This document shows, in pieces, positions 13,298-50,788 of a stretch of DNA of 64,000 nucleotides. The first letter of the stretch is position 1, and each line of letters opens with the position of its first letter. The stretch lies in the IMG/VR virus record IMGVR_UViG_3300033153_016035, positions 55,918-119,917 of that record; one strand, given 5' to 3'. The notes under the pieces were generated by a model. The model was not told where the DNA came from and did no database searches. It saw only the letters and a list, made by a program, of their open reading frames with translations. This DNA is from a virus. The translations under genes were made by a program, and so were the position numbers.

Positions 13298-13831
13298 CTA
13301 CCCTGTTAAAACAAAGTTGTCATTTGACCATAAAAGATTTTCCAAAACCTCAAAAGTGTCAGGATTTAACGCGTACAGCAGTTCCAATGTGGGAACGTAA
13401 CCTCTTTTTAATAATCTTTCTGAAAATATTTCGTAGGGTTCTTGAACCCACGGAAACTTACCGTGTTTCTGTGCTCCGCGAAATCTGCCAAGGATCTTCT
13501 GAAAATTTGGGGAGTTCTCCACTCCCATATGTGTTAAAAGATTTTCTATAGAAGAAAATGGGGGCAATGCTTGTGATCGGGAACCTTCCAGTCTAACTTT
13601 GGTCCCCTTGGGCACCTCAATTGGGTACCACTCGTCCTCAGTGGGAACATAGTAATATAAGGTTAATGGCGCTTTTAAATACGCTAAAGAGCCGTATGAT
13701 CCTATAATCTTTAGCGCCTGCCCACGTGATATAAGTTGAAGGGACTTATCCCCCCCAACCCTTTCTTCCAACACGAAGACTGTGTGGGCACCAGGTGGCA
13801 TATATTCATCTGAAATTGTATTCAACCACAT
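13298..13831 (-). CDS. Hypothetical protein heading the left minus operon, 177 aa
   Basis: First gene of the minus-strand block that runs to position 1. ATG at 13831 is preceded by GGGGTAAGTAGG. Soluble mixed sequence without recognised motif. Upstream, a TTGACA hexamer on the minus strand (13888-13893) probably marks the operon promoter, but I find no well-spaced -10 box, so I do not list a promoter. Being first and followed by 12.5 kb of virion-type genes, it is probably a late structural protein. Confidence 0.78.
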   Translation of the reverse strand: MWLNTISDEYMPPGAHTVFVLEERVGGDKSLQLISRGQALKIIGSYGSLAYLKAPLTLYYYVPTEDEWYPIEVPKGTKVRLEGSRSQALPPFSSIENLLTHMGVENSPNFQKILGRFRGAQKHGKFPWVQEPYEIFSERLLKRGYVPTLELLYALNPDTFEVLENLLWSNDNFVLTG

Positions 13832-13991
13832 CCTACTTACCCCTTTATAACACCTATATTGTTTAAGATGGGGGCTATATTTGTCAAGCTTATTATTACC
13901 AGCACGTTATGGTTATTTACATTTTTATAGCCGTTTGCACTTGATCTCATGGCACAAGGGGAGGTTTAATACACAATAAACTAATTTATCA

Positions 13992-14020
13992 TTTACATAA
14001 AAAGGTAATGATGTTATAAT
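13992..14020 (+). promoter_or_regulatory. Sigma-70 promoter for the small HTH gene
   Basis: TTTACA at 13992-13997, 17-base spacer, TATAAT at 14015-14020. Transcription would start near 14027, about 26 bases before the HTH gene's ATG. It lies in the divergent region between the left minus block and the plus-strand region. Confidence 0.75.
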
Positions 14021-14052
14021 GCCTTCAGGCCGTTGTGTGGAAGGAGAATGAA

Positions 14053-14289
14053 ATGTACGTTGATTTCAAGGAGGCCGCAAAAGTACTGGGAGTCCATTAC
14101 AATACCATCAAACGATGGACGGATAAATTAAAAATCAAGACACCCTCTGCGCCTAAAAAACTAAAACACGTAACCCGTGAGGTAAAGATGGTGCCCTTTC
14201 GGGAGCTTGTAAGTAAACTTACAGATGCAAAAGTATTACCATTTAGTCAAGTAGAGTCTTCTAATAATATTCCGAGTACAAAGAAGTAA
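14053..14289 (+). CDS. Small helix-turn-helix (excisionase/MerR-like) protein, 78 aa
   Basis: I choose the ATG at 14053 because AAGGAG lies 6 bases upstream; the longer GTG start at 14035 would place that ribosome site inside the gene. Residues 1-30 read MYVDFKEAAKVLGVHYNTIKRWTDKL, a winged HTH of the HTH_17/MerR type used by excisionases and small phage regulators. The rest is short, basic and polar. It has its own promoter and lies between the divergent minus block and the giant RNA promoter, so a regulatory role at this junction is likely. Confidence 0.82.
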   Translation: MYVDFKEAAKVLGVHYNTIKRWTDKLKIKTPSAPKKLKHVTREVKMVPFRELVSKLTDAKVLPFSQVESSNNIPSTKK

Positions 14290-14404
14290 ACAGTTTGTAA
14301 ATTATTTAAAAAACTACCACTACAGTTAAAAATTCTACCCCCACAATGTCAACGAACTTCCCGCTGTAACCCCCGAATTTATTACATTTTATTTAATTTT
14401 TCCC

Positions 14405-14433
14405 TTGCATTTCCCGCATTTTTGTGGTATAAT
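14405..14433 (+). promoter_or_regulatory. Sigma-70 promoter for the giant non-coding RNA
   Basis: TTGCAT at 14405-14410, 17-base spacer, perfect TATAAT at 14428-14433. Transcription would begin near 14440, exactly where dense hairpin structure begins. No gene with a ribosome site follows for almost 1.9 kb. Confidence 0.8.
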
Positions 14434-14439
14434 ATAGGT

Positions 14440-15391
14440 AGAAAAGGGGAAAGTTCCCCTTCATCTTAGAGATGGATTTCATCCATCTCCCTCCTAGATG
14501 TCCCGCACCTCCGAAAGAGCCGAGTGGGAAACTCAAGTGGGTTTCTTCGGTGGTTGTGGGTGAGACTTTTGTCGAAAGAGCTAGATGCCGCCCTTTAACG
14601 GGGCTACAGCTCATTAGAGGCATCAACCCGCACAAGTCGCGCATACATGCGCGGATCTGGAAGGACTCCCTGCCGTGGTTTAAATGGCACAGGTGAGGGC
14701 TTCCAGGTATCACAGGCTTAAAACAATCAGGAAACTACCAACCACAAGCCACTTTCTGGTTGACCGCTGACCCAAGAGGAACATTCTCCAGCGGTGCTAA
14801 TCCCAGTCCATCGTGACTGGGTGTGTCCCCGAAAGGGGATTCTGACCGGGGCATTTCACCATGCCCCTTGACCCCACAGCTTCCTCCTAACACGAGGAGC
14901 GGGGAAAGGTCTATTTGCGAGAACCCCACGGAGTCATCTGTGGGCCGAAAAGGATATACGACGTTGACCCTTAGGGGTCGGGGATTGGAGAGTCCCCTGT
15001 GAAGTCGTGAAGTGGTCGCGGGGCGCAACCGCCAGTTAACCCAACCCACACTTGGGGGCCGCTGGTTCTGAAAAGAGGTAAGGGACGTTTCGGGGGGAGA
15101 TGGTATGAAAAAAATTGATAAGACAGGTGGTAGCGATTACTGCTCACCCCATAAATTCTAAAGACCTAAGCGTCCACTGCGGACAAGCTGAAGAAAACAA
15201 AGGTAGCCACAGAGATGGCACCAGAAACGAGGTAAGCTTGAAAGTGTTGGCAGCCTGAGGAACTTACCCATCTAAAGTTTAACCCCTGCTTGCAGGAAGA
15301 AGACTTTTAATGGGACTTGGGGTCGAGTGGTAATTACTACCGCCGACAAATACACCCTGCATGGCAATAAACCATGTGGGGTTTTTATTTT
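14440..15391 (+). ncRNA. Ornate non-coding RNA of about 950 nt (GOLLD/ROOL-like candidate)
   Basis: The stretch runs from a consensus promoter to an intrinsic terminator and holds no convincing gene. It is packed with hairpins: 14444-14460 (7 bp), 14469-14489 (9 bp, loop TTC), CGCGCA-TACA-TGCGCG near 14638, ACCGCTG/CAGCGGT and CCCAGTC/GACTGGG (7 bp each) around 14763-14822, TCCCC-GAAA-GGGGA (GNRA loop) near 14826, GGGGCAT/ATGCCCC (7 bp) near 14850, GACCC-TTAG-GGGTC near 14966, and a nested CCCAT/AAAGT/CCTGC hairpin at 15265-15315. Size, phage setting and ornate folding match the known giant phage RNA classes GOLLD and ROOL, but I cannot confirm membership by eye; it may be a new class. Confidence 0.72.
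15355..15391 (+). terminator. Intrinsic terminator of the giant RNA
   Basis: Ten-pair stem (15355-15364 with 15372-15381, including two G-U pairs), 7-base loop, then GTTTTTATTTT. It ends the transcript begun at about 14440. Confidence 0.85.
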
Positions 15392-15393
15392 AA

Positions 15394-16290
15394 CAAAGAC
15401 CGAGCCCGGTGGCCCGCACTTTTGTGCGGTCATGAATCCTTGCTTTCCCTTGTGGTGGCATAGCGAACCGGAAGTTAAATCTTCTGGGGTTCAACTCCCT
15501 GATTGGTCTTCAAAATTCAACAAGTAGTAACGGGATAAGGGTAAACATCAACCTGTTACGTGACCGTGCCCCTGACGGCCTTAGTACCCTGGACCGGGTG
15601 AAAGCCCCAGATACTTACCGGTTTCTCATGGCCTTGAGACGTTATCAGGGTCGGCATTCCGACGGTGGCATAAAGAATGGGAACTTCGCCACCCGCTGGT
15701 TGGGACTTAGATGTCCTTGGAAAAACTACAGGAAGTAATGTTCTTCGTAGCTGTCCTGGGCGTCCTAAAGGGTTTAACGGTTACTTGCACCCAAGTTATC
15801 CCTCGCTTCGGCCTAAAAACATAAAATGTGCTCGCGGTATTGTGGGAGGCACGCTTACCTCAGATTGTTTAACGACGGTCGACGGTGGGTAAGTTTAGGT
15901 TAGAGTCCTAAAATATCTGCACAACGCGGAATAACAAATCCGCAAGCTTGCCCCGAGGAAGCTAAAAAAATTAAATAACAACAATTTTATATGTCGGCGT
16001 TGGTAGAGTGGCTACTACGTAGGTTCAACCCCTAAAACGTCAACAAAACTTTGTGGGGCTAAGGCCCCGGTCCAGTATAATCTGTGTTAGAAAAGAGTTG
16101 AAACTGGACATCGACTAACACAAACTGCTTACCCCATCGGGAAAAGCGAGGTGGGGAGTTCTAACGAACTAATCGCCGTCAACTCCGGCGAGGAAGATGG
16201 GGAAGCGTCAAAATCTTTAAACGATCCTGGTAGGGTAAAACCTACCGGGGTCATCATCTATTCTATTTCGTAACTATCACAGGGGGCCTG
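15394..16290 (+). ncRNA. Second structured non-coding stretch with an H-type pseudoknot
   Basis: About 900 bases without a credible gene. Hairpins include CCGCAC-TTTT-GTGCGG (about 15413), GTCGG-CATT-CCGAC (about 15651), GGTGGC/GCCACC, GCGGA/TCCGC (about 15936), GGGGC-TAAG-GCCCC (about 16056), AGTTC-TAAC-GAACT and CGCCG/CGGCG. A clear pseudoknot pairs 16070-16076 with 16103-16109 and 16083-16090 with 16115-16122. tRNA T-arm-like motifs (GGGTTCAACTCCC at about 15487; AGGTTCAACCCCT at about 16021) occur, yet no canonical tRNA can be folded around them. I see no separate promoter, so it may be read through from upstream. It could be one RNA or several. Confidence 0.5.
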
Positions 16291-16311
16291 AGTGCCCCCG
16301 AGGAGTTTAAA

Positions 16312-16584
16312 ATGAAGACTATAGTATTACAAAGAGTCCCCGATGGGTATCGGGGAGATTTGGACTGTCTAGCGGTGGTAACGCCGCATAAAGAAATTGG
16401 CTGCACCCATAGTGGGCACGGCCACGACTATAAAGTCCACATCGTCATCGACGAAACCGTCGCAGGGACGTTGTTCCGTGAACACGGGAATAATGGGGGT
16501 GGAAAACCTGCCTGTGATACCTTCTATCCAGCGGAAGGTTGGAAGGTTGAGTATGACGATTACGACGACGATGACGACGACTAA
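16312..16584 (+). CDS. Small protein with poly-aspartate tail, 90 aa
   Basis: ATG preceded by GAGGAGTTTAAA, and a stable hairpin directly upstream of that ribosome site. The middle has a His/Cys-containing stretch (CTHSGHGHDYKVH, residues 31-43) and the last 12 residues are almost all aspartate with tyrosine. The acidic tail resembles DNA-mimic or metal-binding tails, but I recognise no family. It is embedded between the second and third structured RNA stretches. Confidence 0.72.
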   Translation: MKTIVLQRVPDGYRGDLDCLAVVTPHKEIGCTHSGHGHDYKVHIVIDETVAGTLFREHGNNGGGKPACDTFYPAEGWKVEYDDYDDDDDD

Positions 16585-16677
16585 AATTAACCCCAGGTGG
16601 GCTAGAAGCCCACTTGGGATATCATCTATTCCATTTTTTAACTATTACAGGGGCCTGAGTGCCCCGAGGAGTTTAAA

Positions 16678-16971
16678 ATGAAAAAAGATAATAAAAAAAA
16701 CCAACTCCTGCGCTCCTTCGCGCAGGCGGCCAATTTTCCCTTTGCCGAAGCACGAAAAAGAGCGTATTGGTGGGGAATCCCCCACTACTTCTTGGGGGAA
16801 GAGCCAAACGGTTCCCGGTGGTGGGTAGAACTCGATTTTACAAAAAACGAGTACCGCATCGTCGTCTGGGAAGGGCGGGAGTGGACCAAAGCCGTAAGAA
16901 CCGAAGGCTCGAAGTTGACCAAACGCCTGGTCCGCGTAACCAGGTGTCTAAGAGGCTGGAAACAAAAATAA
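16678..16971 (+). CDS. Small basic hypothetical protein, 97 aa
   Basis: Its leader is nearly identical to that of the gene at 16312 (hairpin, then GAGGAGTTTAAAATG), suggesting duplication of a regulatory cassette. The product is rich in Lys, Arg and Trp (KRAYWWGIPHYF; RWWVELDF) and strongly basic at the C-terminus, consistent with nucleic-acid binding, but no known fold is recognised. Confidence 0.72.
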   Translation: MKKDNKKNQLLRSFAQAANFPFAEARKRAYWWGIPHYFLGEEPNGSRWWVELDFTKNEYRIVVWEGREWTKAVRTEGSKLTKRLVRVTRCLRGWKQK

Positions 16972-16984
16972 ACCCAACCCCAGG

Positions 16985-17432
16985 TAGGCTAGAAACCTGC
17001 TTGGGGTATTATAAAACGTGGGTGTTGGAAAGCATCTTTACAAGGTGCCCTCCACCGCCCACCCAGCCGGGCCGGATTAACCCCTATCCCGGTTACTAAA
17101 CGGACTTTGCCTACAGTCCAACAACTAAAGTAGGCGCCTTGCCGAGGACGGTATAACTCCCTTTCGGGCCCACCTGATTAACGCCACCGTGCGAGGGGAA
17201 CGGGTTCAACTCCCGTGGCAACACCAATATGTGGTTTCCAATGACCACGTTCATGACAGGACACTGTTGACGTACAACTGCCATTTGGCGGCGGGCGTCG
17301 AGTGTCCGTTGCCCGCCAGCAGTGCCATTGCATGTTTAACTCTGGGAGTCGCGACCTTAGAGTTAAAACCCAATTGGAGAAAAAGCCCGCAAACACACCC
17401 CAACCCTGGAGTGCGTTTGCGGGCTTTTTTTA
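16985..17432 (+). ncRNA. Third structured non-coding stretch with pseudoknot and terminator
   Basis: No credible gene lies between 16972 and 17548. Visible structure: GCCTAC/GTAGGC (about 17109-17136), a T-arm-like hairpin ACGGG-TTCAACT-CCCGT (17203-17219), GTGGT/ACCAC (17231-17248), an H-type pseudoknot (17259-17265 with 17301-17307; 17290-17296 with 17311-17317), a 9-bp stem (17335-17343 with 17359-17367), then an intrinsic terminator. GGTGTTG near 17019 can pair with CAACACC near 17219, which would close a domain of about 210 nt. The T-arm and the ACACCA after it resemble the 3' end of tRNA or tmRNA, but I cannot complete either fold. Exact ends are unknown. Confidence 0.5.
17385..17432 (+). 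terminator. Intrinsic terminator closing the third RNA
   Basis: GCCCGCAAAC (17385-17394) pairs with GTTTGCGGGC (17415-17424), preceded by an A-run and followed by TTTTTTTATTT. Confidence 0.85.
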
Positions 17433-17485
17433 TTTCAAATTTTTACGTTTGTGGGGTAATTGCCTACAGGCGTAATTATATTTCA

Positions 17486-17532
17486 GCCCGCAATATCCTT
17501 TCTACGAGAGGGGATGTTGCGGGCTTTTTTTT
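17486..17532 (+). terminator. Second intrinsic terminator in tandem
   Basis: GCCCGCAATATCC pairs with GGATGTTGCGGGC, followed by eight T. It repeats the GCCCGCAA/TTGCGGGC core of the terminator 100 bases upstream and lies only 17 bases before the next ATG, so it may act as an attenuator for the gene at 17549. Confidence 0.75.
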
Positions 17533-17548
17533 AATTTAAGGAGAAATC

Positions 17549-17842
17549 ATGTCTCGAAACAAAAAAAATAATATGACCCAACCCCAACCCCAACCCCAAC
17601 CCCAATTCACTCCCGCCACCCAAATGAACAGTCTCCCGGCACCAGCCGAGGAGATGGTAAGTAGGACCATCGGGGAGTTGATCCAGGAATCAGTCGAAAG
17701 GAACCTGGACTTTTCAGGGTGTATACGGCAGGCCGACAAAGAGCTTGACGTCTCGTACACCCCACCCAAAGATGAGGAGGGGTCGGTGAAAAAAAGGGAG
17801 TTTCAATTGAGGTTCCGCGACAACAAGAGAATCTCAGACTAG
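17549..17842 (+). CDS. Hypothetical protein with PQ repeat, 97 aa
   Basis: ATG preceded by AAGGAG at 5-base spacing. Residues 10-19 are a proline-glutamine repeat encoded by tandem CCCAAC units (about 17578-17606), a likely length-variable microsatellite. The remainder is helical and charged with no recognised motif. First gene after the tandem terminators, so its expression may depend on read-through. Confidence 0.72.
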   Translation: MSRNKKNNMTQPQPQPQPQFTPATQMNSLPAPAEEMVSRTIGELIQESVERNLDFSGCIRQADKELDVSYTPPKDEEGSVKKREFQLRFRDNKRISD

Positions 17843-17920
17843 CCTATTCCGGGGGTGGCTCCCCCGGCTCCTTACCATGTTTTTTTAAACCCTGTAACTT
17901 TTAAGAAAAGGAGGTCTACC

Positions 17921-18943
17921 ATGATTATCATGCAAGACCAAGTTCAGAATTTTCAGGATATAAACACGTTACATGAGCACGTAGAAGCTCAGGATGTCAG
18001 CGAAAGGATCGGAACGGTAAAGCTCCAAGATATGGAGCTATGGCCGAACTCCCTGCGAGTCAGGGATGAACACTACGCGTTGACCCGGACAGGCGTCAAC
18101 GACGCTCTATCCCTGGCACATTTCCCTCAGGGAGCCTTCATTAAGGTCGAAGAGGAGAAACAAGGCGATATCGACTTGGGGTTGTGTACATACACCAACT
18201 CCTTCTATAACCATGCCTCTTGCAAAAATAAGAGGCGCAAGATAATAACCCGCGCCACCACCGAAAACGAAAAGGAGGCGACTGGCCTTGAAAGGGCTGT
18301 CATCGGCATCCCGAGTGAGCAATACTATTTGTTTTCTCACGCCGAGGCGCTTGATAAAATCAAGGCCCCGGTTTCCACTCTCCAGGTAAAAAGGGCGCGG
18401 GTGACACCGCACTTAATGGAAATATGTGTGGTGGACGACCGCTTCAAAGCCCAAGCGGGCGCGGTTGGAGACATAGTAGAGATTGGGGTTAAAATCCTCA
18501 ACTCACAAACCCGAGCAAGGAAGCTCCAATTTGGAGCCTTCACATGGCGGCTTTGGTGTACAAATGGCTGCTCCGCAGCCAGCGAAGCGTTTTCGTTTGG
18601 ATTTGTCCACCGGCAGGGAATAACGGCCATCAATGGCCAGATAGAGCCAGGCATTAGAGACCTAATTGAGAAGACGGAAGTCTTCACAAAGGGTCTTCCG
18701 CGTCTGGCAGAAATGCCTGCCGACGACAAGTTCATCCGGCGGATCGAGCCTCGGCTCGTCCAAGGGATGAAAACAGCACCGGCGCAACTGTACACCGAGG
18801 GTCTCCGGGAAAACCGGCAAAACCGGTTGGATGTTTGGAACTACGTCACCGAGTACGCACACAAACATACCGGGGGCGACGTCAACAAACAGCAAACCCT
18901 GGAGAACCTTGGGTTCTCCATCCTGGAGATGTCCATAAATTAA
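17921..18943 (+). CDS. DUF932 phage/plasmid-like protein, 340 aa
   Basis: The start at 17921 is chosen because AAAAGGAGG lies 6 bases upstream; the frame is open to 17855 but lacks a ribosome site there and would include an upstream hairpin. The length and the central FGAFTWRLWCTNGCSAASEAF block match the DUF932 family (phage/plasmid-like protein), widespread on phages and plasmids with no firmly established function. Flanked by a GC hairpin upstream and a strong terminator downstream, so it may be a single-gene unit. Confidence 0.85.
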   Translation: MIIMQDQVQNFQDINTLHEHVEAQDVSERIGTVKLQDMELWPNSLRVRDEHYALTRTGVNDALSLAHFPQGAFIKVEEEKQGDIDLGLCTYTNSFYNHASCKNKRRKIITRATTENEKEATGLERAVIGIPSEQYYLFSHAEALDKIKAPVSTLQVKRARVTPHLMEICVVDDRFKAQAGAVGDIVEIGVKILNSQTRARKLQFGAFTWRLWCTNGCSAASEAFSFGFVHRQGITAINGQIEPGIRDLIEKTEVFTKGLPRLAEMPADDKFIRRIEPRLVQGMKTAPAQLYTEGLRENRQNRLDVWNYVTEYAHKHTGGDVNKQQTLENLGFSILEMSIN

Positions 18944-18951
18944 CAACCCAG

Positions 18952-18987
18952 CCCCGACAGGATAAGCTCCTGTCGGGGTTTTTATTT
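18952..18987 (+). terminator. Intrinsic terminator after the DUF932 gene
   Basis: CCCCGACAGGA pairs perfectly with TCCTGTCGGGG (11 bp, 5-base loop), then TTTTTATTT. The strongest of the intergenic hairpins in this cluster. Confidence 0.85.
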
Positions 18988-19019
18988 CCCCAAACACTAA
19001 CTCTTTGAAAGGAGACTAT

Positions 19020-19385
19020 ATGGGAAATTTCTTTTACTGGTCCAATTCGGACCTGAAGAACTTAGAAGCGGCCGCACACCGCGATGGGTACCGGCTGCCC
19101 ACAAATTTTTACATGAGGCGGTCGGAAGTAACGGCGGACCTTTACCAACAGGAAGAGGTTCGTGATGAGGCGGTAAAGGCCGCCGCGACGGAGTGGCAGA
19201 AGCTCCGTAAGGGGATTGCCTGGGTCAAGCTCGATGGAGACGACCAGGAGGTCGGTCCCCGATCGGCTGACTTTTACAAGGAAGCCCTCCCCCAGCAGTT
19301 GTTTGACTTGCTGGGAAGTTTTGACCGGAAGGCCGCTTTGGTGGCGGCTATCGAGTTTATACGCACGTATAGACCCGCAGAATAA
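19020..19385 (+). CDS. Hypothetical protein, 121 aa
   Basis: ATG at 19020 with GAAAGGAG 5 bases upstream; the longer TTG start at 19005 would swallow that ribosome site. Soluble, helical, no cysteine pairs or membrane segment, no family recognised. Member of the hairpin-punctuated accessory cluster. Confidence 0.75.
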   Translation: MGNFFYWSNSDLKNLEAAAHRDGYRLPTNFYMRRSEVTADLYQQEEVRDEAVKAAATEWQKLRKGIAWVKLDGDDQEVGPRSADFYKEALPQQLFDLLGSFDRKAALVAAIEFIRTYRPAE

Positions 19386-19460
19386 ACTGTGTCTACAGGG
19401 GGCTAAATGCCTTCTGTAGACTTTATGCTTTTTATTACATTAACTTTTTAAGGAAATATT

Positions 19461-19652
19461 ATGAAAAAGTACGACCTTGTATGCCCCCATTGCCACGAAC
19501 CGGAGGTGGTTCACCTCCCGGCACATGCGCCCAATGAGCCCCACTGTACGGAATGTGGGGAGGATGTGGATCTTGACGAGGTCCACACATTTATCAATGG
19601 GTGGACCGATTATCTGGCTGACAGAAAAGCGTTTTTGGAGGCAAAAAAATGA
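19461..19652 (+). CDS. Small zinc-ribbon protein, 63 aa
   Basis: CPHC (residues 9-12) and CTEC (29-32) form a four-cysteine zinc ribbon, followed by a helical tail. AAGGAAATATT precedes the ATG. The stop overlaps the next ATG (ATGA), so the two are probably translated together. Confidence 0.78.
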   Translation: MKKYDLVCPHCHEPEVVHLPAHAPNEPHCTECGEDVDLDEVHTFINGWTDYLADRKAFLEAKK

Positions 19653-20089
19653 ATCTGATTGAATTCTTCCGAGGAGACTACACCCTAAAAGTGGAGGTTC
19701 TCCTGACGGACCCTGATAATAAAAGGGTCTGCCTGACTATCGTCCAAACTGCCCCTGACACAAGGAAGGCGTTGAGGACCAATCAGTTCTACCTCAAACT
19801 GTCGGAGGCGCGGATACTGTTTCAGGACTTTTTGTCCTGTGAATTTTGGGTCGCCAACCGGCGATATCCAAAAAGACAGTTCCGGCGGATCCGAAAGTCC
19901 AGCCGGTACCGGGATGTCATTATCCAGCCTAAGGATAATGACCTTTCCTTATCTATTATAGATGGGGAGAAGGAAAATGTCCTTCGGTTTCAGTTGACCT
20001 CGTTTGAAGCCGCCGAGATGGCGGACACGGTTTTAGACTATCTGGACAAAAAGCGCCTCGCCTGGGCGATAAAGCAGGCGATAAAATAG
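19649..20089 (+). CDS. Hypothetical protein, 146 aa
   Basis: Starts inside the stop of the small zinc-ribbon gene (ATGA overlap). Mixed alpha/beta, with a basic patch (RYPKRQFRRIRKSSRYR, about residues 72-88) that could contact nucleic acid. No family recognised. The paired translation suggests a joint function with the zinc-ribbon protein. Confidence 0.75.
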   Translation: MNLIEFFRGDYTLKVEVLLTDPDNKRVCLTIVQTAPDTRKALRTNQFYLKLSEARILFQDFLSCEFWVANRRYPKRQFRRIRKSSRYRDVIIQPKDNDLSLSIIDGEKENVLRFQLTSFEAAEMADTVLDYLDKKRLAWAIKQAIK

Positions 20090-20182
20090 GGACTACCGGG
20101 GGACACAGTTCCCCGGTAGCCGTCATGGCCCGTAACATTTCTTTTCGGCGGCCTTTCGGTCGCTATTTAAAAAGGAGAATTT

Positions 20183-20872
20183 ATGTATATTCATTTTTCC
20201 GAACCGGGCAAAATGCCCTGCCATGCCTGGTCGCTTCCGACGGCAATGTGCCAATCGGGACAAAAGTACCGGTTACAGGGCGACCTGACCGGTAAACCAT
20301 TTGCCTGTCGTGTGTGTTATGCACACCTTGGGCCTACGTCCTGGAATAAAAACCAGGGATATTTAACAAAAAACTGGGAGGCGTATGCCGCAAATCCAGA
20401 TGGCTGGGTGATAGAGATTGCCGACGCTATCTGGAATCGACTAAACGCCTTGTATTTCCGGTGGAACCACAGTGGCGATATCCAAAGTGCAATCCACTTA
20501 GGACACCTAGTCGGCGTGGCCGAGCTTTGCCCCAAAACTTTTTTCTGGCTACCAACGTCCGAATTTGCCTTCGTGTCTCGATATCTCCGGGACGGTGGCG
20601 ACATCCCCAAAAATTTATGTGTACGGGTATCGGCCCCACTCATAGACGGGAAACCCCGCATCTTGCGGAGGCCGCACCCCCAAGTGGCATACAGTAGAGT
20701 AGTCTACCATGAGGTAGATGAAACCTTGTGCCCTGCTCACAGACAGGAGGGGGTTTGCGGCAAATGCCGCAGATGTTGGGATATTAACGAGAGACTAGTA
20801 TCCTATCCACTTAAGGTGGGGTACACCTACTGGCCGTTACTAACAGCCAATAGGCTAGGTCTAATAAAATAA
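20183..20872 (+). CDS. Gp88-family phage protein, 229 aa
   Basis: The ordered motifs MPCHAWSLPT...CQSG, ACRVCYAHLG, YFRWNHSGDIQS, CPKTFFWLPTSE and a cysteine-rich C-terminus (CPAHRQEGVCGKCRRC) match the mycobacteriophage Gene Product 88 family, in which conserved cysteines may bind metal. The function of the family is not established to my knowledge. AAAAAGGAG precedes the ATG. It has hairpin modules on both sides. Confidence 0.78.
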   Translation: MYIHFSEPGKMPCHAWSLPTAMCQSGQKYRLQGDLTGKPFACRVCYAHLGPTSWNKNQGYLTKNWEAYAANPDGWVIEIADAIWNRLNALYFRWNHSGDIQSAIHLGHLVGVAELCPKTFFWLPTSEFAFVSRYLRDGGDIPKNLCVRVSAPLIDGKPRILRRPHPQVAYSRVVYHEVDETLCPAHRQEGVCGKCRRCWDINERLVSYPLKVGYTYWPLLTANRLGLIK

Positions 20873-20953
20873 AACCGGGCCGGGGAGGATAGAACCTCCT
20901 CGGTTCTTTATCTTTTACTTTTAATTTTACTTAACAAAGGAAAGGAGATTTGT

Positions 20954-21505
20954 ATGAAAGACAAATCTCATCTTACCACCACCTATGACGCCTACAACAC
21001 CGCCCGGATCCTCGATGACTACGTCAATGGATCCGGCGGCTTCACCGAAGTTTTTGCTGAGAGTTTCAGCTTGGAAGAAGCGCGGGTTGTGTGTAAATTT
21101 TTCTACCACTCCCTCATCTACTATGGAGGAAAAGAGGTAGGCATTGACGGGCGGAACGAATACTACGTAGGGGTCTGCAAAAAAATCAGACCAAAACATC
21201 ACGCCATGCAAGTGGCAGACTGCGCAACGTACAACGGGAACAAGGAAGAAATACCGTACCACCCTGAAGAGTACGCCGTGTCCAGATTTCTGGTACGGTG
21301 GTTGAAGACTGCTTCGATGTCTGAACAGAAGAAATTCTTTCACTTCTTCAGGGAGGACACGCACAACATGCTCCAGTCCTATTTTGTAGAACTGGCCATC
21401 AAAATGTGTCTTTACTGGCACGCTAGGCTCCCAGAACTAAAACCGCTAATAAAAAGTATTGTAGATGCAGGTCACTACATAAATACCCGCGATTTACACT
21501 ACTAA
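20954..21505 (+). CDS. Hypothetical protein, 183 aa
   Basis: GGAAAGGAG lies 8 bases before the ATG. Soluble, largely helical, with scattered Cys and His but no CxxC pair. No family recognised. Separated from both neighbours by the hairpin module. Confidence 0.75.
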   Translation: MKDKSHLTTTYDAYNTARILDDYVNGSGGFTEVFAESFSLEEARVVCKFFYHSLIYYGGKEVGIDGRNEYYVGVCKKIRPKHHAMQVADCATYNGNKEEIPYHPEEYAVSRFLVRWLKTASMSEQKKFFHFFREDTHNMLQSYFVELAIKMCLYWHARLPELKPLIKSIVDAGHYINTRDLHY

Positions 21506-21577
21506 AAAGAACCCGGCGCTGGCCATAAACCGGCGTCGGGTATCATAACCTATTTCGTTTCTTTTTAGGAGAAATCC

Positions 21578-21826
21578 ATGAGATGTACGAAAGAACAACT
21601 GGACCAATGGGTCCAGATACTAACCAAACTTGTCCCACCACCCAAATGGTGTCGGTGGGAATACCGAAATGAGTATGGTCATGGGATTTTCCCCGTAATC
21701 ATAAAAAATGGTGCCGTTTACGCCAACAAGGTGCTCGGCGGGATGGTCCACAATACCAAACCAGAGTTACTGTCGCACATCAAGTTTACGGTTAGTGTTA
21801 TTCAAGCCCTGAAGGGGGGAGAGTAA
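21578..21826 (+). CDS. Hypothetical protein, 82 aa
   Basis: TTAGGAGAAATCC precedes the ATG. Its stop overlaps the next start (TAATG). The sequence contains PPPKWCRWEYRNEYGHG and no recognised domain. Confidence 0.7.
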   Translation: MRCTKEQLDQWVQILTKLVPPPKWCRWEYRNEYGHGIFPVIIKNGAVYANKVLGGMVHNTKPELLSHIKFTVSVIQALKGGE

Positions 21827-22101
21827 TGTATTTCAAATTTAAACTAAACGTAGTCCGGGAGGCCCTATCCTCTGAGACTATTACCATCAATCTCCGGGGG
21901 CCTAAAGAGGCACCGGTATTTTCAAATGGACTTCTGTCCGAAATTCTTGAGGCCAGTGAGGTTGAGACCTCGGTTTCTGTGTCCTCCAAGGACATCAGAG
22001 ATCTACTAAAAACGCATGGGCGGTACAAAAAGTATATGTACTGCTTGGTCCAGAAGGATTACCTTCTAGTGGGATTTTCCCCACTCAAAAAAAGAAAATA
22101 A
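21826..22101 (+). CDS. Hypothetical protein, 91 aa
   Basis: Begins within the stop of the preceding gene (TAATG), implying coupled translation. Beta-rich N-terminus and a basic C-terminal KKRK. No family recognised. Confidence 0.7.
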   Translation: MYFKFKLNVVREALSSETITINLRGPKEAPVFSNGLLSEILEASEVETSVSVSSKDIRDLLKTHGRYKKYMYCLVQKDYLLVGFSPLKKRK

Positions 22102-22173
22102 ACCTGAGCCTGGGTGGAGGTAGAACTTCCCCGGGCTATTATCTTTAATTTCATAACTTTTTAGGAGACTACT

Positions 22174-22683
22174 ATGGATTTTTTAAAGCTTATCAGAGAA
22201 GAAGAGTACCAGACAGTAGTGCGCCAACTGGCGCATGAAGACGGGATCGAAGTGGTCCTATCTATTCCCGGAGTATGGGAGCTGGTGGCGGAGTTTTATA
22301 ACAACGCCGCCATTGAGTTGTGGCAGAAGGAACTCCCCTTTACGTGGGAGGAGGATGGTCACGAGGTGGTATTGGAACTCCTGGAGACGGGCACGAAAGT
22401 CGTGCTACGCCAGTCCGACCGCCCGTGGTCCAGCCCGGGGTTTTCCCGCCTGGAGTACGAAGTCTACCAAACGGGGTTTACCCCCATTTTTGAGAATGAC
22501 GACTTCGCAGTTCCGACGGGGGCGGGTTTAACCCTCAGGTCGACTTTAAGCCTACTGCGCCACCTCACAGACCCACATAAGCTGGGTCGGGAATTTGACC
22601 TCAACCAGCTCGACTGGTTAGAGACTTATGGGGGGGAGATCGGAGGATTTGCTGCCGATTGGCGGCAAAGGCTCGACATATAA
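22174..22683 (+). CDS. Hypothetical protein, 169 aa
   Basis: TTAGGAG precedes the ATG after a hairpin module. Acidic soluble protein, helical at both ends, without motif or membrane segment. No family recognised. Confidence 0.72.
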   Translation: MDFLKLIREEEYQTVVRQLAHEDGIEVVLSIPGVWELVAEFYNNAAIELWQKELPFTWEEDGHEVVLELLETGTKVVLRQSDRPWSSPGFSRLEYEVYQTGFTPIFENDDFAVPTGAGLTLRSTLSLLRHLTDPHKLGREFDLNQLDWLETYGGEIGGFAADWRQRLDI

Positions 22684-22744
22684 AACTAAACCCGGGCGGG
22701 ATGACTCCTGTCCGGGTTACTATTTCTATTTTAAGGAGAAAAAT

Positions 22745-22951
22745 ATGAGCTACAAACACCCCGAAGGGTGGATCAAGCGTGGGGAGAAACACCACTTTTT
22801 CGTGGACGGCGTCTCCCTGTGTCGCCATTTCTACCAATTCACGTACGATAACCCGTCCGAACACGACGGGCTGTACAACTTAATGGACTGCGCCGAGTGC
22901 CAGTCCAAACACAAGCATTTAATCTCTGAAAGGAGATTTAAAAATGGATAA
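22745..22951 (+). CDS. Small Cys/His-rich protein, 68 aa
   Basis: AAGGAG lies 5 bases before the ATG at 22745; the frame is open upstream but lacks a ribosome site. Residues near 26-55 contain C..H and CAECQSKHKH, suggesting a zinc site. Its end overlaps the next gene's start by 8 bases. Confidence 0.72.
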   Translation: MSYKHPEGWIKRGEKHHFFVDGVSLCRHFYQFTYDNPSEHDGLYNLMDCAECQSKHKHLISERRFKNG

Positions 22952-23120
22952 AAACTGTGAGGACTGTGGTACCCCCATTATACGAGGGGGGATGGTTGTC
23001 GTCGATGGCGCCGTGAAGGCTGGCGACGTTTTACTTTGCAGCGAATGCAAAAACAAACAAAAAATTCGTACGCATAACGCCCTCACCCATATGTACGGGC
23101 AGATGGCGATGGACGACTAA
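22944..23120 (+). CDS. Tiny zinc-ribbon protein, 58 aa
   Basis: Starts with ATG at 22944 behind AAGGAG and overlaps the previous gene by 8 bases. It reads MDKNCEDCGTP..., then LLCSECKNK: two CxxC pairs (residues 5-8 and 33-36) spaced as in a zinc ribbon. Followed by the hairpin module at about 23125. Confidence 0.75.
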   Translation: MDKNCEDCGTPIIRGGMVVVDGAVKAGDVLLCSECKNKQKIRTHNALTHMYGQMAMDD

Positions 23121-23195
23121 ACTGTGCCCGGGTAAGGATAAAACCTTGCCTGGGTTTTATTTTTTTATTCCCTAGTTTACTTTAAGGAGACTTCT

Positions 23196-23504
23196 ATGGA
23201 TAAAAACTACACCGACCCCAAAAAGTGTTGGCCCCCAAAAATGGACAAAGACCTCGATCTGATTTTTCGGATCGGGGACACGATGTCAGACTTTTTGGGG
23301 AGGCACGGGGTGGCTGGCCAACTTGATGGCCCATACCAAGCGTGGGCACACCCCAATTACCACAGGGAGACCCCCGAGACAATTAGGGGGGACAGCTCCA
23401 TCGGAGATGGGGGGTTAAATGACAAAGTCCTTAGGTCAGCCACTGCATTTGTGGCGTACAGCTTGTCTATGACGAGTGCCCCGACTGTCGAAGTATCTGT
23501 TTGA
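23196..23504 (+). CDS. Hypothetical protein, possibly frameshifted into the next zinc protein, 102 aa
   Basis: TTAAGGAG precedes the ATG. Residues 1-75 look like a normal soluble protein. The last 25 or so (after GDGGLNDK) overlap a different frame that encodes a dense cysteine pattern, so the true product may continue in that frame after a -1 shift between about 23434 and 23500. No canonical slippery heptamer is visible; a sequencing error or a decayed fusion is as likely as programmed shifting. Confidence 0.6.
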   Translation: MDKNYTDPKKCWPPKMDKDLDLIFRIGDTMSDFLGRHGVAGQLDGPYQAWAHPNYHRETPETIRGDSSIGDGGLNDKVLRSATAFVAYSLSMTSAPTVEVSV

Positions 23505-23710
23505 CATGTTACGCGTGTGGTGGGGTATGGAAGCCCAAGACCCCGCCGGAAAGTCGGGAATGTCCAGAAACCTGCATCCACTGCGGGACTTCCTGCTGCC
23601 CTAATTGCGGTGGGGAGATATATCGCGTTGAGGAGAGGGATGGAGTAGAGGAGCAGTACAGAAAAGCGTGTTCATACTGCTCCTGGCGACACTGCGGGGG
23701 GTGCATTTAA
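23501..23710 (+). CDS. Cysteine-rich multi-zinc-ribbon protein, start uncertain
   Basis: The frame from a possible TTG start at 23501 encodes CYACGG, CIHCGTSCCPNCGG, CSYC and CGGC. It is open back to 23435, and those upstream codons also give cysteine pairs (CICG, CPDCRSICLTC), so coding almost certainly begins upstream of 23501 even though no ATG or GTG is present. This favours a frameshifted fusion with the gene at 23196. Treat the boundary as unresolved. Confidence 0.6.
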   Translation: MTCYACGGVWKPKTPPESRECPETCIHCGTSCCPNCGGEIYRVEERDGVEEQYRKACSYCSWRHCGGCI

Positions 23711-23786
23711 AATAAGGCCAGAGGGGGTTGAAAGCCCCTCAGGTCATCATCTACTTCATAACTTTTTCAAGAAGAAAGGGTATGCT

Positions 23787-24005
23787 ATGTATAGATCAAC
23801 AAGCCAAGTTATCTGCAAAAACCGAAAAACAGGCGAAGAAAAAACATATAGCGGATTAGAACCATGTGATGCTCTGATCGTCATTTACGCGCAGAGCATC
23901 GGAGACTTTAATTCGGCGCACTACGGTAAATACTGTGCATACATACGCCGGGACGGGGTTTACAAATATGAACTTGGGGACTGGTATGTTGCCACTCCAA
24001 CCTAA
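23787..24005 (+). CDS. Hypothetical protein, 72 aa, with truncated paralogue downstream
   Basis: AGAAAGGGTATGCT precedes the ATG. Begins MYRSTSQVICKNRKTGEEKTY. The first 15 codons are closely repeated at 24856, where the copy is truncated. No function recognised. Confidence 0.7.
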   Translation: MYRSTSQVICKNRKTGEEKTYSGLEPCDALIVIYAQSIGDFNSAHYGKYCAYIRRDGVYKYELGDWYVATPT

Positions 24006-24082
24006 ATAAAAACCAGATCTGAGGGGGCTTACCCCTCCTCAGGTCATCATCTACTTTATTTCTTTATTAAGGAGAATTCTAT

Positions 24083-24775
24083 ATGAGAAAAATAAGCGAG
24101 ACACCGAGGGACTGTTATGAGTCCTTCTTTGCGACGTCGTCGCCCATTGTGACCATCCGTCAGGTTTTAGGGATACCTAACCCTGATGAGTTTGGTATTG
24201 TAGGTGATGACGGGGCTTACAAAATATGGTTTGAGGGAACCCCTATCCAAAATTATAGGGGGGAAATTGTATCGGGAAGCTGGCCGCAGTTCAACCCCGT
24301 GGAAAAAGCACGTCAGGAGAGCCTACCCCACCTTGGAAAAGTGTGGGTTATCTGGAGTCATGATCTCGAACTCCTCGGGGAGTGGAAACAGGCCCTAAAA
24401 AAGGGTGATCCAAATTACCGTGAAGCGGTAACGGAGGATATCGTCATCATGTGGCGGTGGTTTGAAATAGACAACCCGTTTCTTTTCATCCATGACCTGC
24501 ACCTGCCAAGGTCGATACCCCTACTAGACTGTGCCCGAAATGACGAGTTTCTCAGGTGGGCATACACCCTCAAATTTGAGGATATGACCCCCCACGAAGA
24601 AAAACACGCCATGAAGCACTGGATGCCCTCCGGTAAATGCAACCAGCACCTTGATGGCAAATTTCGCGTCAGAAAGAACCGACGCGGACTTTGGAAATGG
24701 TCGTGCGGTTTCTGCGGGGAACGGGGCACGGAGAAGTTTAAAGCACCGAGTGAGTGCCCCCTTTGTAAAAAGTAA
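24083..24775 (+). CDS. Hypothetical protein with C-terminal zinc ribbon, 230 aa
   Basis: AAGGAG lies upstream of the ATG. The N-terminal 180 residues are rich in Trp and acidic residues with no recognised fold. The C-terminus has CGFC (residues about 209-212) and CPLC (about 225-228), a typical zinc ribbon. Flanked by hairpin modules. Confidence 0.75.
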   Translation: MRKISETPRDCYESFFATSSPIVTIRQVLGIPNPDEFGIVGDDGAYKIWFEGTPIQNYRGEIVSGSWPQFNPVEKARQESLPHLGKVWVIWSHDLELLGEWKQALKKGDPNYREAVTEDIVIMWRWFEIDNPFLFIHDLHLPRSIPLLDCARNDEFLRWAYTLKFEDMTPHEEKHAMKHWMPSGKCNQHLDGKFRVRKNRRGLWKWSCGFCGERGTEKFKAPSECPLCKK

Positions 24776-24855
24776 ACCCAGGGCCAGGAAGGATTGGAAC
24801 ACTTTCTGGCCATTATCTATTTATTTACTTCATAACTTTTACAAAGGAATGGTAA

Positions 24856-24930
24856 ATGACATATAGACCAACAAGCAGAGTCGTCTGTAAAAACCGAACT
24901 TTTTTAAAGGGGTGGCCATGTGTAAAATGA
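24856..24930 (+). pseudogene. Truncated paralogue of the 23787 gene
   Basis: ATG at 24856 opens MTYRPTSRVVCKNR, matching the start of the protein at 23787. The match stops at ACTTTTTTAAAGGGG, the U-rich tract and ribosome site of the next gene, giving a 24-codon remnant. The break falls in the AACTTTTT motif shared by the intergenic modules. Confidence 0.65.
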
Positions 24931-25061
24931 CTTTTGGGTACGTGGAATCATTCACCCATTTTAATGTCTGCGCAGATTGGACCCCCGACTGCGCGGAGAT
25001 CAAAGACAAAGAGAAGTGTCAAGGGTATGAGCCCGCCACTGGGCCATGCCCTTACTTATAA
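24918..25061 (+). CDS. Small cysteine-containing protein, 47 aa
   Basis: ATG at 24918 follows AAAGGGGTGGCC. The short product has four spaced cysteines after residue 2 (CAD...DCAE...KCQ...PCP). It ends 10 bases before the next ATG. Too short for family assignment; supported by ribosome site and tight spacing. Confidence 0.55.
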   Translation: MCKMTFGYVESFTHFNVCADWTPDCAEIKDKEKCQGYEPATGPCPYL

Positions 25062-25071
25062 GGAGCGACCT

Positions 25072-25341
25072 ATGTTCAGAATTGTGGCAACACAATGCTT
25101 CTGCGACCTTTCCGTTTTCACCATAAACGGAGAGACCGCAGCCTATGAAGACTTCGGCGACAAGTATGACGCCGATGAAGAAAACGCACCCGACTATGGG
25201 TGTGGTAATATGAAATTTTTTCCCAAACCCGCAACCCAAGCGGTACTGGATAAGTACCGCACCACCACCGACGAGTACAACGAGATTTGCGCTGCGCTAG
25301 AAGCGGCGCTATCGTTTGGTGAATGCGAGTGGTGCTCCTGA
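25072..25341 (+). CDS. Hypothetical protein, last gene of the plus cluster, 89 aa
   Basis: The ATG at 25072 is preceded by AAGGAGCGACCT; the frame is open upstream to 24934 but that part overlaps the previous gene and lacks a ribosome site. Acidic, with Cys residues near both ends (TQCFC; CEWCS). Followed by a strong terminator. Confidence 0.72.
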   Translation: MFRIVATQCFCDLSVFTINGETAAYEDFGDKYDADEENAPDYGCGNMKFFPKPATQAVLDKYRTTTDEYNEICAALEAALSFGECEWCS

Positions 25342-25353
25342 CAAACCTATGCC

Positions 25354-25397
25354 CCCCGACTGTGACCAACTAGGTCATAGTCGGGGGCTTTTTTTAT
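25354..25397 (+). terminator. Terminator between convergent operons
   Basis: CCCCCGACT...TGACC (25354-25368) pairs with GGTCA...AGTCGGGGG (25374-25388), then TTTTTTT on the plus strand. It lies between the plus cluster and the minus gene ending at 25394 and may serve both directions. Confidence 0.85.
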
Positions 25398-30779: not shown

Positions 30780-32012
30780 TTATTTAAACTCTGCTAAATA
30801 GTCTTCTACGGAGATAATTCCTCGCATAAATTTTTGATAAATGTTTCCAGGGGGTTTTTGGTAGGGAAGCAATGATCCATCTTGACCCGGAACTATAGAT
30901 GGTAAATCAGAAATTGCATCAACAACTGTAATTGCCGATTTTTGGAAGTTAAAAAGATTGCTCTCTGTGTTCATAGTTGTGATAGGGTCAGGCGGCTGAA
31001 TTTTTTCAGATGATTTATTTTGGCCAACCAGAAAAACTCTTTTTCTTCTTTGCGGTATTGCAAAGTTTTCTGTGTTTAAAACCCACCCGGTAATCGACGA
31101 CATAACACTATTGAAAGATTCTTTAACTTCTTCAAAAACTCTCCCCTTCTCCATATTGAGAAGTCCAGCTACATTTTCAAAAACAAAACCATCGGGGTTC
31201 ACCTCATTAATAAATTCCTTGTAGTTAATAAATAGTAAATTTCTTTTGTCCTTCATGGTTCGTTTATTGCCCGCTGTTGAAAATCCTTGGCAAGGAGGAC
31301 CGCCAAGTACCCAAAAAGGCAATTCCTTATGTTTTTCTTTTGCTTTTATGGCAATATCAACAAGAATTGAAAAGTTTTTTTCATCCGTGATACTTCCTAC
31401 TATCACATCTTGATGTACGTTGGCTGCGTAAGTTTCTAGGAAACGAGATTCAATATCATTGGCTATAATAGGTATCCAACCAGCCCATTTAAAACCCAAG
31501 CCCATGCCCCCTGCACCTGAAAAAAGATCTACAAAAACTCCAGGATTACCTATCGTGTTTATCACTTGCTTAGCAATTTGAAACGTTAACAATGGAGGAA
31601 CCGCATTTCCTATTTGGTTGTTTATTGCAGTTTGTGAGCCGAAAAATTTAAAATTATCGGGGAAAGATTGTAACCTTGCAGCTTCTCTTTGGGACAAAAC
31701 GCGGTCTTGATTATAGTGAATATGACACCCATTTCCTGGACGATTAAAATATGTGTTTATGGTGTATGAGGGCTTATGGGGCAGAAGTCTTCCATAATAA
31801 GTAGAACGACTACCTTTCCCTTGGGCATAGCTTTCTCGAATTTGTGCGATTCTCTTAGACGGGACATGTTCCGGGATATTCTTCCAATTGCCACCAGGTG
31901 GAACAGATTTCACAATTTGCATATCTAGTTCGCTCAAACGCGAACTGAAATGATTGTGAATTTGATGAGGTTCGCTCTTCGTTATATTATAAATACCTCT
32001 TTGTCTATCCAT
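30780..32012 (-). CDS. Circularly permuted DNA cytosine-5 methyltransferase, 410 aa
   Basis: All key C5-methylase motifs are present but out of order. IX (QREAARLQSFPD, 108-119) and X (QIGNAVPP, 133-140) come first, then I (VDLFSGAGG, 161-169), IV with catalytic Cys (GGPPCQGFS, C242), VI (FENV, 278-281) and VIII (QRRKR, 321-325). The target-recognition part therefore lies at the N-terminus (residues 15-105). This permutation is known from M.BssHII-type enzymes. No restriction partner is near, so it probably modifies phage DNA against host restriction. The gene is A+T-richer than its neighbours and its first 10 residues (MDRQRGIYNI) copy those of the adjacent 2H gene. Confidence 0.9.
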   Translation of the reverse strand: MDRQRGIYNITKSEPHQIHNHFSSRLSELDMQIVKSVPPGGNWKNIPEHVPSKRIAQIRESYAQGKGSRSTYYGRLLPHKPSYTINTYFNRPGNGCHIHYNQDRVLSQREAARLQSFPDNFKFFGSQTAINNQIGNAVPPLLTFQIAKQVINTIGNPGVFVDLFSGAGGMGLGFKWAGWIPIIANDIESRFLETYAANVHQDVIVGSITDEKNFSILVDIAIKAKEKHKELPFWVLGGPPCQGFSTAGNKRTMKDKRNLLFINYKEFINEVNPDGFVFENVAGLLNMEKGRVFEEVKESFNSVMSSITGWVLNTENFAIPQRRKRVFLVGQNKSSEKIQPPDPITTMNTESNLFNFQKSAITVVDAISDLPSIVPGQDGSLLPYQKPPGNIYQKFMRGIISVEDYLAEFK

Positions 32013-49101: not shown

Positions 49102-49497
49102 TTATGTTCCGTACGATTCATCGACGCTGCCATGAACCTCAACGCCAAAATTCTTAGCCTGCCTACCCTCAAAAAACCCCTCAGCTATCGCCAACCTCCT
49201 ACCCAATCTCTCTGCCACCGGCACCCAGAGTGCCTGCGCCTGAGGGTTCTTATTTGTGTTAAGAGTATCCACCACTTCGGCAAGATAATCCCTTAAAACG
49301 TCGATATGGGCTTGCGCGGCCTTAAGGAAAACTGATGGTGTTCCCATACGCAGCAATATCTCTAAAAGAGCATGGGTTTTTTCAAAAACATCCCCCTTAT
49401 TATTTGTCCCGAGCTTTTCATACTTTTGAATAAGCATGAGGTCATCCACGCGGGTAAACTCTGTCAAAAGCCCGGGAAACGTTTCTAACCCCTTCAT
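49102..49497 (-). CDS. Hypothetical helical protein, 131 aa
   Basis: ATG at 49497 overlaps the upstream stop (ATGA) with GGAGAAC before it; the ATG at 49509 lacks a ribosome site. Helical, no motif recognised. First gene after the capsid-tag protein in the assembly cluster. Confidence 0.7.
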   Translation of the reverse strand: MKGLETFPGLLTEFTRVDDLMLIQKYEKLGTNNKGDVFEKTHALLEILLRMGTPSVFLKAAQAHIDVLRDYLAEVVDTLNTNKNPQAQALWVPVAERLGRRLAIAEGFFEGRQAKNFGVEVHGSVDESYGT

Positions 49498-50447
49498 ATA
49501 GTTCTCCATTGCTTGTAAATTTTGACCAGTGACACCCCTTCAGGGATGCGTGAACCGAGTTCTGTAAAGTTCTGAAGATGCACCGCGCCTTCGCCTTGCC
49601 CAACGCCGAGGGCATAATCTGCCATCTTCCCGTTGTTATGAGCCATATTAAGCAGGATGGAGATTGTAGCAATACGCTCTCCCCCATCCAGGGCTTTAAA
49701 GTTCTTGGAGTGGAGGTACTCTTTATAATATTTCCTGATGTCTTTCACGGATTTCTTGGTAATGTTCAACGCATGACTCGCAGCTTTAAGAAGATTCTTG
49801 AATAATTTGTTATCGGTAACAATGTCTTCTATAGTGAGGGAGGAGACTCCGGTAAATTTCCACAGATATTCACTGAGCCTATCCCCTTCCACCTCAACAC
49901 GCTCCCGGCTACGGGGGCGGAAGACCATCGTTATAACGCCCCGATTCGCCCCCTCTTGGGCAATAAACCTCCGTATCCCATAAACCCCATACTTTTCAAA
50001 GCGCTTACGAAGGCGAGGGAACTCTTTGAAGAAAGCATCCCAGGATAAAACCTCCAGTCTGTCGGAAGTGGCGTTAATATAATGAACTCCATCCTCGCGG
50101 TAATATGCATACATAGAATAGAAGATCTTGATCCCCGTGATGAGGAACCCGTCCAGCCACATTCGGAACCTGCGTTCTAAATGCTCCAGGATGTAGACGG
50201 TGATAGTGTTCAGTTCCTGTCCCACAGTATGGGACAGGGGAACATAGTGGTCAGGTATCTCACTGATACTCCGGTACTGCCGTTTAAACTCAGAATTCAA
50301 GTACTCCAAAACGTAAAAGAACTTTAGTAAATCGTGGTCGGAGAAAGAGCCCCACCCTTCCGTTAACGTTGAAAGAACAGGGACAAAAACCTCCTCCTCG
50401 TCAAGAAGCGGATGCAGCCCAGCACGTAAAAGAAAATAACTGTCCAT
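49494..50447 (-). CDS. Tagged virion-type protein A, 317 aa
   Basis: Starts at ATG 50447 after AAAGGGTTACAAT; the frame is open to 50513 but that part overlaps the next gene. N-terminus MDSYFLLRAGLHPLLDEEEV is shared with the proteins starting at 60008 and 61420. A candidate LTE-G site follows (TLTEGWGSF, about residues 27-35). The body is soluble and helical with no recognised enzyme motif. Likely a packaged internal protein if the shared N-terminus is a capsid-targeting signal. Confidence 0.78.
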   Translation of the reverse strand: MDSYFLLRAGLHPLLDEEEVFVPVLSTLTEGWGSFSDHDLLKFFYVLEYLNSEFKRQYRSISEIPDHYVPLSHTVGQELNTITVYILEHLERRFRMWLDGFLITGIKIFYSMYAYYREDGVHYINATSDRLEVLSWDAFFKEFPRLRKRFEKYGVYGIRRFIAQEGANRGVITMVFRPRSRERVEVEGDRLSEYLWKFTGVSSLTIEDIVTDNKLFKNLLKAASHALNITKKSVKDIRKYYKEYLHSKNFKALDGGERIATISILLNMAHNNGKMADYALGVGQGEGAVHLQNFTELGSRIPEGVSLVKIYKQWRTI

Positions 50448-50482
50448 ATTGTAACCCTTTAAAATTAAGAAGGCCCCAGCCC

Positions 50483-50788
50483 CTACCTCTGCTCCGCCAA
50501 CCCCATAATACATGCGTAGGGGAACATAAATCGCTTAGGGGGCTTTGGCGCTTCCTTTTGATTTCCTGGCAAGGCCAGCTCACTATGGGGAGGGTGCAGT
50601 TCTACATAACCGTCATACAGCTTAAAAAGTCCCACCCCCACCTGGAGAACAAAGCCTTCCTGGGCCAAAAAGACAATAACCGGTTTGGCGGCGGCGTACT
50701 GGGGACTATGTGCGCCTTCGACGGTATCCCCAACCACGTTCTTTAACCCAAGACCTTCAAGAACATCCGTCATGGTATCCTTATTCAT
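50483..50788 (-). CDS. Hypothetical protein, 101 aa
   Basis: Overlaps the upstream gene by 4 bases. Helical N-terminus, hydrophobic beta middle (KPVIVFLAQEGFVLQVGVGLF), proline/lysine linker. No family recognised. Confidence 0.68.
   Translation of the reverse strand: MNKDTMTDVLEGLGLKNVVGDTVEGAHSPQYAAAKPVIVFLAQEGFVLQVGVGLFKLYDGYVELHPPHSELALPGNQKEAPKPPKRFMFPYACIMGLAEQR

Follow-up and report, generated by a model that had tools for sequence, protein, structure and literature searches.

A candidate ~945-nt structured noncoding RNA at the head of a hairpin-rich transcription unit in a large phage

RESULTS

Genes and features at the locus

The window, that is, the whole 64,000-nucleotide stretch of DNA that was analyzed, covers bases 55918 to 119917 of a 119,917-base virus record. 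The record represents a large phage that encodes terminase, portal, and polymerase proteins. The first two share ~30 to 44% identity with counterparts from uncultured tailed phages, and the terminase reaches the same range against those of Vibrio, Maribacter, Thermus, and Rhizobium phages. Within the window, a leftward cluster of structural genes ends at position 13831, a rightward unit follows from ~13990, and leftward genes appear again beyond a strong terminator at 25353 to 25387. The rightward unit, probably an early transcription unit, spans ~11 kb and contains ~18 small genes and, close to its head, a tract termed RNA1. The features of this region, all on the plus strand, are as follows (positions are those of the window).

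13992..14020, +, upstream promoter of the helix-turn-helix gene, TTTACA-17-TATAAT with an extended -10, pointing away from the leftward genes
14053..14289, +, small helix-turn-helix protein encoded between this promoter and that of RNA1 (HTH_17, E value 1e-4, under the curated cutoff)
14405..14433, +, RNA1 promoter: -35-like TTGCAT, 17-nt spacer, TATAAT, extended -10 TGG
14405..25393, +, hairpin-rich rightward unit, coding and noncoding, ending at the terminator 25353 to 25387
14440..15386, +, candidate noncoding RNA "RNA1," ~945 nt between the inferred start and the terminator, defined by its fold and the lack of a coding signal
14444..14461, +, 5' hairpin of RNA1 in the predicted fold, AAGGGGAAAGUUCCCCUU
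14464..15123, +, predicted multibranch domain I of RNA1 (z = -9.0)
14825..14840, +, hairpin with a GNRA loop in the predicted fold
15126..15344, +, predicted domain II of RNA1 (z = -6.1)
15354..15391, +, intrinsic terminator of RNA1
15391..16260, +, "RNA2," second gene-free tract, with little structure (z about -2.3) and two hairpins resembling tRNA T arms
16985..17427, +, "RNA3," third gene-free tract (z = -6), with terminator-like hairpins at its end

Start and stop signals of RNA1 and absence of a gene

A perfect extended -10 element, TGGTATAAT, lies at 14425 to 14433, with TATAAT at 14428 to 14433 and TGn ahead of it. The sequence-only reading had described a consensus promoter at this site, which is right for the -10 and too generous for the -35, as TTGCAT at 14405 to 14410 matches the consensus at only 3 of 6 positions. 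Perfect TGNTATAAT occurs four times in the 64 kb, versus 2.0 expected, and two of these copies, at 14012 and 14425, are at the start of the rightward unit. The intrinsic terminator noticed at the other end is real, consisting of an 11-bp stem (15354 to 15382) followed by the T tract TTTTTATTTTA. The tract was also said to hold no gene, and codon usage agrees: no frame in 14320 to 15390 scores like the genes of this phage, on which ground a protein gene was rejected, and all ORFs listed within the RNA1 tract are short. RNA1 therefore shares with GOLLD-type RNAs a length of >800 nt, a phage origin, and the absence of an ORF beyond these short ones, and it shares with the discrete phage noncoding RNAs of the ICP1 and phage K kind a tract that lacks genes and is bounded by start and stop signals of its own.

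Predicted fold and stability of RNA1

The minimum free energy (MFE) of RNA1 is -406 kcal/mol, 91 kcal/mol below that of dinucleotide shuffles (-315; standard deviation [SD], 8), giving a z score of -11.3 with 60 shuffles (-14.3 when only 20 shuffles were used). Among 374 tiles of 951 nt from the 120-kb genome, RNA1 ranks first for GC-corrected stability, in keeping with the earlier description of about 950 nt dense in hairpins. The reverse strand is less extreme (z = -6.4), as expected if the plus-strand RNA is the selected molecule. In the predicted fold, a 5' hairpin is followed by a multibranch domain of 660 nt, a second domain of 219 nt, and the hairpin of the terminator; the pair probability averages 0.86. 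Domain I is predicted to be closed by an interrupted long-range helix of ~60 bp joining 14464 to 14543 with 15038 to 15123, and its predicted helices mostly have pair probabilities of 0.85 to 1.0; the GNRA loop pointed out previously is indeed present, as GAAA at 14831 to 14834. Domain II is predicted to be closed by 25 bp between 15126 to 15151 and 15318 to 15344, around an A-rich, weakly folded center.

RNA1 also ranks first of the 374 tiles for energy from pairs spanning >150 nt (-52 kcal/mol versus a mean of -26.6; SD, 5.9), and its own shuffles reach only -29 kcal/mol (SD, about 6). The runner-up, a leftward tile at 32192 on the minus strand, has a gain of -49.5, so close to RNA1 that the rank is support rather than proof. 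Among six segments of the rightward unit tested, the long-range excess is found in RNA1 only, the other five being near shuffle level or weaker. The stability of RNA1 alone does not prove an ornate RNA, since neighboring coding tiles in the rightward unit lie nearly as far below their shuffles.

Several specific roles and features were considered and rejected. The GGA motifs are mostly paired in the predicted fold, arguing against a CsrA-type sponge; no complementary or palindromic loops suitable for kissing interactions exist in that fold; the longest match of RNA1 to other genes is 13 nt, which speaks against an antisense action; and unpaired A residues are as frequent as in shuffles.

Dense local hairpins across the rightward unit

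RNA1 is not alone in its high stability. Local hairpins crowd the whole rightward unit (~14.4 to 25.4 kb), its genes as well, and this context is itself more surprising than the RNA1 candidate. In 300-nt tiles, the unit has a mean z score of -3.7, with 64% of tiles below -3 (n = 36), while the other ~108 kb is ordinary (mean z, -0.46; 3.4% below -3; n = 358). When synonymous codons were permuted, which keeps both protein and codon usage, ten genes of the rightward unit gave a mean z score of -5.3, down to -9.4, or ~53 kcal/mol per kb, compared to -0.47 for 14 leftward genes. Hairpin coverage in most of the block is about 3- to 4-fold over that of shuffles. In the coding segments, stability comes from short hairpins, the gain from pairs of >150 nt being close to that of shuffles or weaker. 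RNA viruses reportedly possess genome-scale ordered RNA structure that runs through coding sequence beyond the needs of protein and codon usage; the rightward unit is similar in its coding-sequence folding, but it is a single stretch of ~11 kb and belongs to a double-stranded DNA phage.

The tetranucleotide profile of the block falls within the range of other blocks and its composition does not single it out as foreign, so a chimeric contig was rejected. The block is more extreme than five other phages sampled over ~50 kb each, whose lowest 9-kb averages range from -0.7 to -2.7; the lowest of them, -2.7 in Caulobacter phage Seuss, is not far from the block. Hairpin density revealed no such block in two distant relatives, G002 and G037, and the single block gene searched has no detectable relative in G002.

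Homologues and known large RNAs

GOLLD is often located near tRNA genes, and the sequence-only reading had raised GOLLD and ROOL, with their tRNA neighbors, as possible relatives. Neither part of this idea was borne out. ARAGORN found 0 tRNA genes in the whole 120-kb record, and Rfam covariance models yielded no family at the gathering threshold in the window or the remainder of the record. The proposed covariance-model check for GOLLD, ROOL, OLE, and HEARO gave no match to any of them within 13850 to 17700, even at E values up to 10 with lax filters. RNA1 as a tRNA, a tmRNA, or a member of any Rfam family was rejected on these grounds. It may nevertheless work like GOLLD, ROOL, OLE, or HEARO without being one of them, as a folded phage RNA that is discrete and contains no gene.

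No homologue of RNA1 was detected by blastn in phages and plasmids, nor by blastn of the tract against about 42 records of phage relatives, which were gathered from viral contigs through the terminase and a small structural protein (best terminase, 38 to 44% amino acid identity). The matches of 14 to 38 nt in these records are at chance level, and those inspected, in G002, G037, and G032, lie in ordinary sequence. Four DNA patterns from the A-rich loops of RNA1 had 46 hits in viral and genome contigs, 0 of them with similar flanks. A terminase search in genome contigs found none.

To our knowledge, very few giant bacterial or phage RNAs have been described, and neither GOLLD nor ROOL has an established function. 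GOLLD (Rfam; PMC12286853) is, like RNA1, phage-borne, >800 nt long, noncoding, and heavily folded; RNA1 differs in having no covariance match, no tRNA gene in the 120-kb record, and no recognizable counterpart of the conserved 3' domain of GOLLD. ROOL (Rfam; PMC12286853) is likewise phage-borne, large, noncoding, and multibranched, but RNA1 has no covariance match to it, is longer (~945 versus 659 nt), and has no tRNAs nearby. Cages and multimers of GOLLD and ROOL were seen by cryo-electron microscopy (PMC12286853). Long noncoding RNAs are reported to be expressed by ICP1 and phage K (PMC7567579, PMC9241854). The abundant ~800-nt RNA of lytic ICP1 (PMC7567579) resembles RNA1 in occupying an ORF-less gap of ~1 kb in a large phage without tRNAs; the two have no sequence similarity, and with a z score of -2.3, the ICP1 gap has much less structure. 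The phage K RNAs are also long phage noncoding RNAs, and their resemblance to GOLLD and ROOL is by location, size, and abundance only (PMC9241854). Unlike RNA1, they adjoin tRNAs; sequence similarity to RNA1 is absent, and the phage K tract, chosen from annotation and assessed by the same measure as RNA1, has a z score of about -4.6.

DISCUSSION

RNA1 as a proposed discrete structural transcript

We consider it slightly better than an even bet (probability, about 0.52) that RNA1 is a separate, noncoding, globally folded structural phage transcript of ~945 nt, standing at the head of a rightward unit under selection for folding. From its own promoter, RNA1 would be the first RNA product of the unit and would end at its own intrinsic terminator, both signals being seen directly. 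The discrete RNA would fold into the two predicted domains, each closed by long helices, and accumulate to high levels during infection as a stable RNA with a structural role. It may work like GOLLD, ROOL, and the ~800-nt RNA of ICP1, in scaffolding or assembly, multimerization included, rather than as a message. The dense local hairpins of RNA1 and the downstream genes may serve one and the same purpose, closing the transcript to single-strand-specific ribonucleases. A stand-alone, globally folded RNA1 is supported by its own signals, its lack of coding, and long-range folding beyond that of its neighbors; the stronger z score of the transcribed strand (-11.3 versus -6.4 on the other) and a structure exceeding that of the ICP1 and phage K tracts point the same way. 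Against it stand the poor -35, the nearly equal long-range gain of the minus-strand tile at 32192, the failure to find any homologue, the origin of the sequence in a single metagenomic contig, and the absence of loop-loop complementarity, a GGA sponge pattern, or an antisense target that would point to a function.

Is RNA1 a product in its own right, or only the untranslated head of a hyper-structured unit? The near-equal stability of the coding neighbors also counts against the stand-alone transcript, and on this alternative RNA1 would be a leader without a role of its own, its terminator an attenuator, and the same selection would have filled genes and leader with hairpins. In its favor are the codon-permutation result in the ten unit genes and the further terminator-like hairpins along the unit. 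It does not account for the excess of long-range folding in RNA1 alone, nor for an extended -10 promoter of its own behind a separately promoted gene, and ~0.95 kb without an ORF is long for a leader, so we regard it as rather unlikely. The terminator-like sites, of which both strands of 13.8 to 26.2 kb have 45 versus 16.3 expected, also bear on a different proposal, a cis-acting antitermination element (put-like or EAR-like) whose folded RNA would modify RNA polymerase to pass serial terminators. Strong plus-strand hairpins of this type follow many genes, near 15354, 17485, 18950, 19391, 20877, 22689, 23126, and 25353, and plus-strand promoter-like sites in the unit are few. The series suggests either antitermination or RNA-stabilizing 3' hairpins, and the intergenic hairpins could be of the latter kind rather than terminators. 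Antiterminator RNAs described so far are short, RNA1 has a terminator of its own at the 3' end, and no relative of it was found, which leaves antitermination improbable.

A DNA-level origin is given a similarly small chance: the hairpins might be template-switching inverted repeats, or replication, packaging, or injection signals, with the RNA fold as a by-product. As inverted repeats would predict, the opposite strand of the block is structured too (mean z, -2.6). The transcribed strand is, however, more so (mean z, -3.7; paired difference, -1.06; standard error, 0.26; 36 tiles), the bias being plain in RNA1 itself, and the block matches a single transcription unit. The size, phage context, and dense structure of RNA1 would suit a highly divergent member of GOLLD or ROOL, but we think this identity highly improbable given the failure of both Rfam models under permissive settings and the lack of a tRNA gene.

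Beyond the stand-alone transcript, we tentatively propose, as a possibility less likely than not, that selection on the RNA has made the rightward unit fold from end to end, coding sequence included. The result would be an "armored" transcript that resists ribonucleases or RNA-targeting defenses; RNA1 would be the most elaborate product of the unit and would represent a new class of giant RNA. As a new class, RNA1 is a candidate drawn from one genome, a single metagenomic contig. If the discrete RNA is real, it would add to GOLLD and ROOL a third large RNA, unrelated to them and carried by a phage in which no tRNA genes are detectable, implying that such RNAs originated repeatedly and need no tRNA islands. 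Folding that goes well past what codon usage and protein require in the coding sequences of this unit, but not elsewhere in the genome, would imply that phage transcripts are under a selective pressure; ribonucleases and RNA-targeting immunity are the proposed sources, directly testable by recoding and probing.

Other observations in the window

Three tRNA T-arm-like hairpins are found within 1.7 kb, each in gene-free sequence, at 15485 to 15501, 16019 to 16035, and 17200 to 17216. They have a TTCAAYY loop, GGGTTCAACTCCC is present twice, and acceptor-like complementary ends occur near each; neither ARAGORN nor the Rfam tRNA model called a tRNA at these hairpins. An intergenic module is repeated at 16238 to 16316 and 16606 to 16682, running from a GC-rich hairpin through ATCATCTATTTC..AACTTTTT and AAGGAG to ATG. 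Its copies ahead of 16312 and 16678 have in common a GGGGCCTGAGTGCCCC hairpin immediately 5' of the ribosome-binding site, and similar intergenic blocks precede most rightward genes. On the minus strand, three otherwise unlike proteins (49494 to 50513, 57333 to 60008, and 60278 to 61420) share a peptide in the N-terminal region, MDSYFLLRAGLHPL or MNSYFLLRAGLHPA, which may be a tag for sorting or processing. A DNA methyltransferase-like protein at 30780 to 32012 (minus strand) matches a separate family, phrog_23910, over residues 64 to 153, ahead of the region with its best methyltransferase match, which suggests that its domains are arranged in an unusual order.
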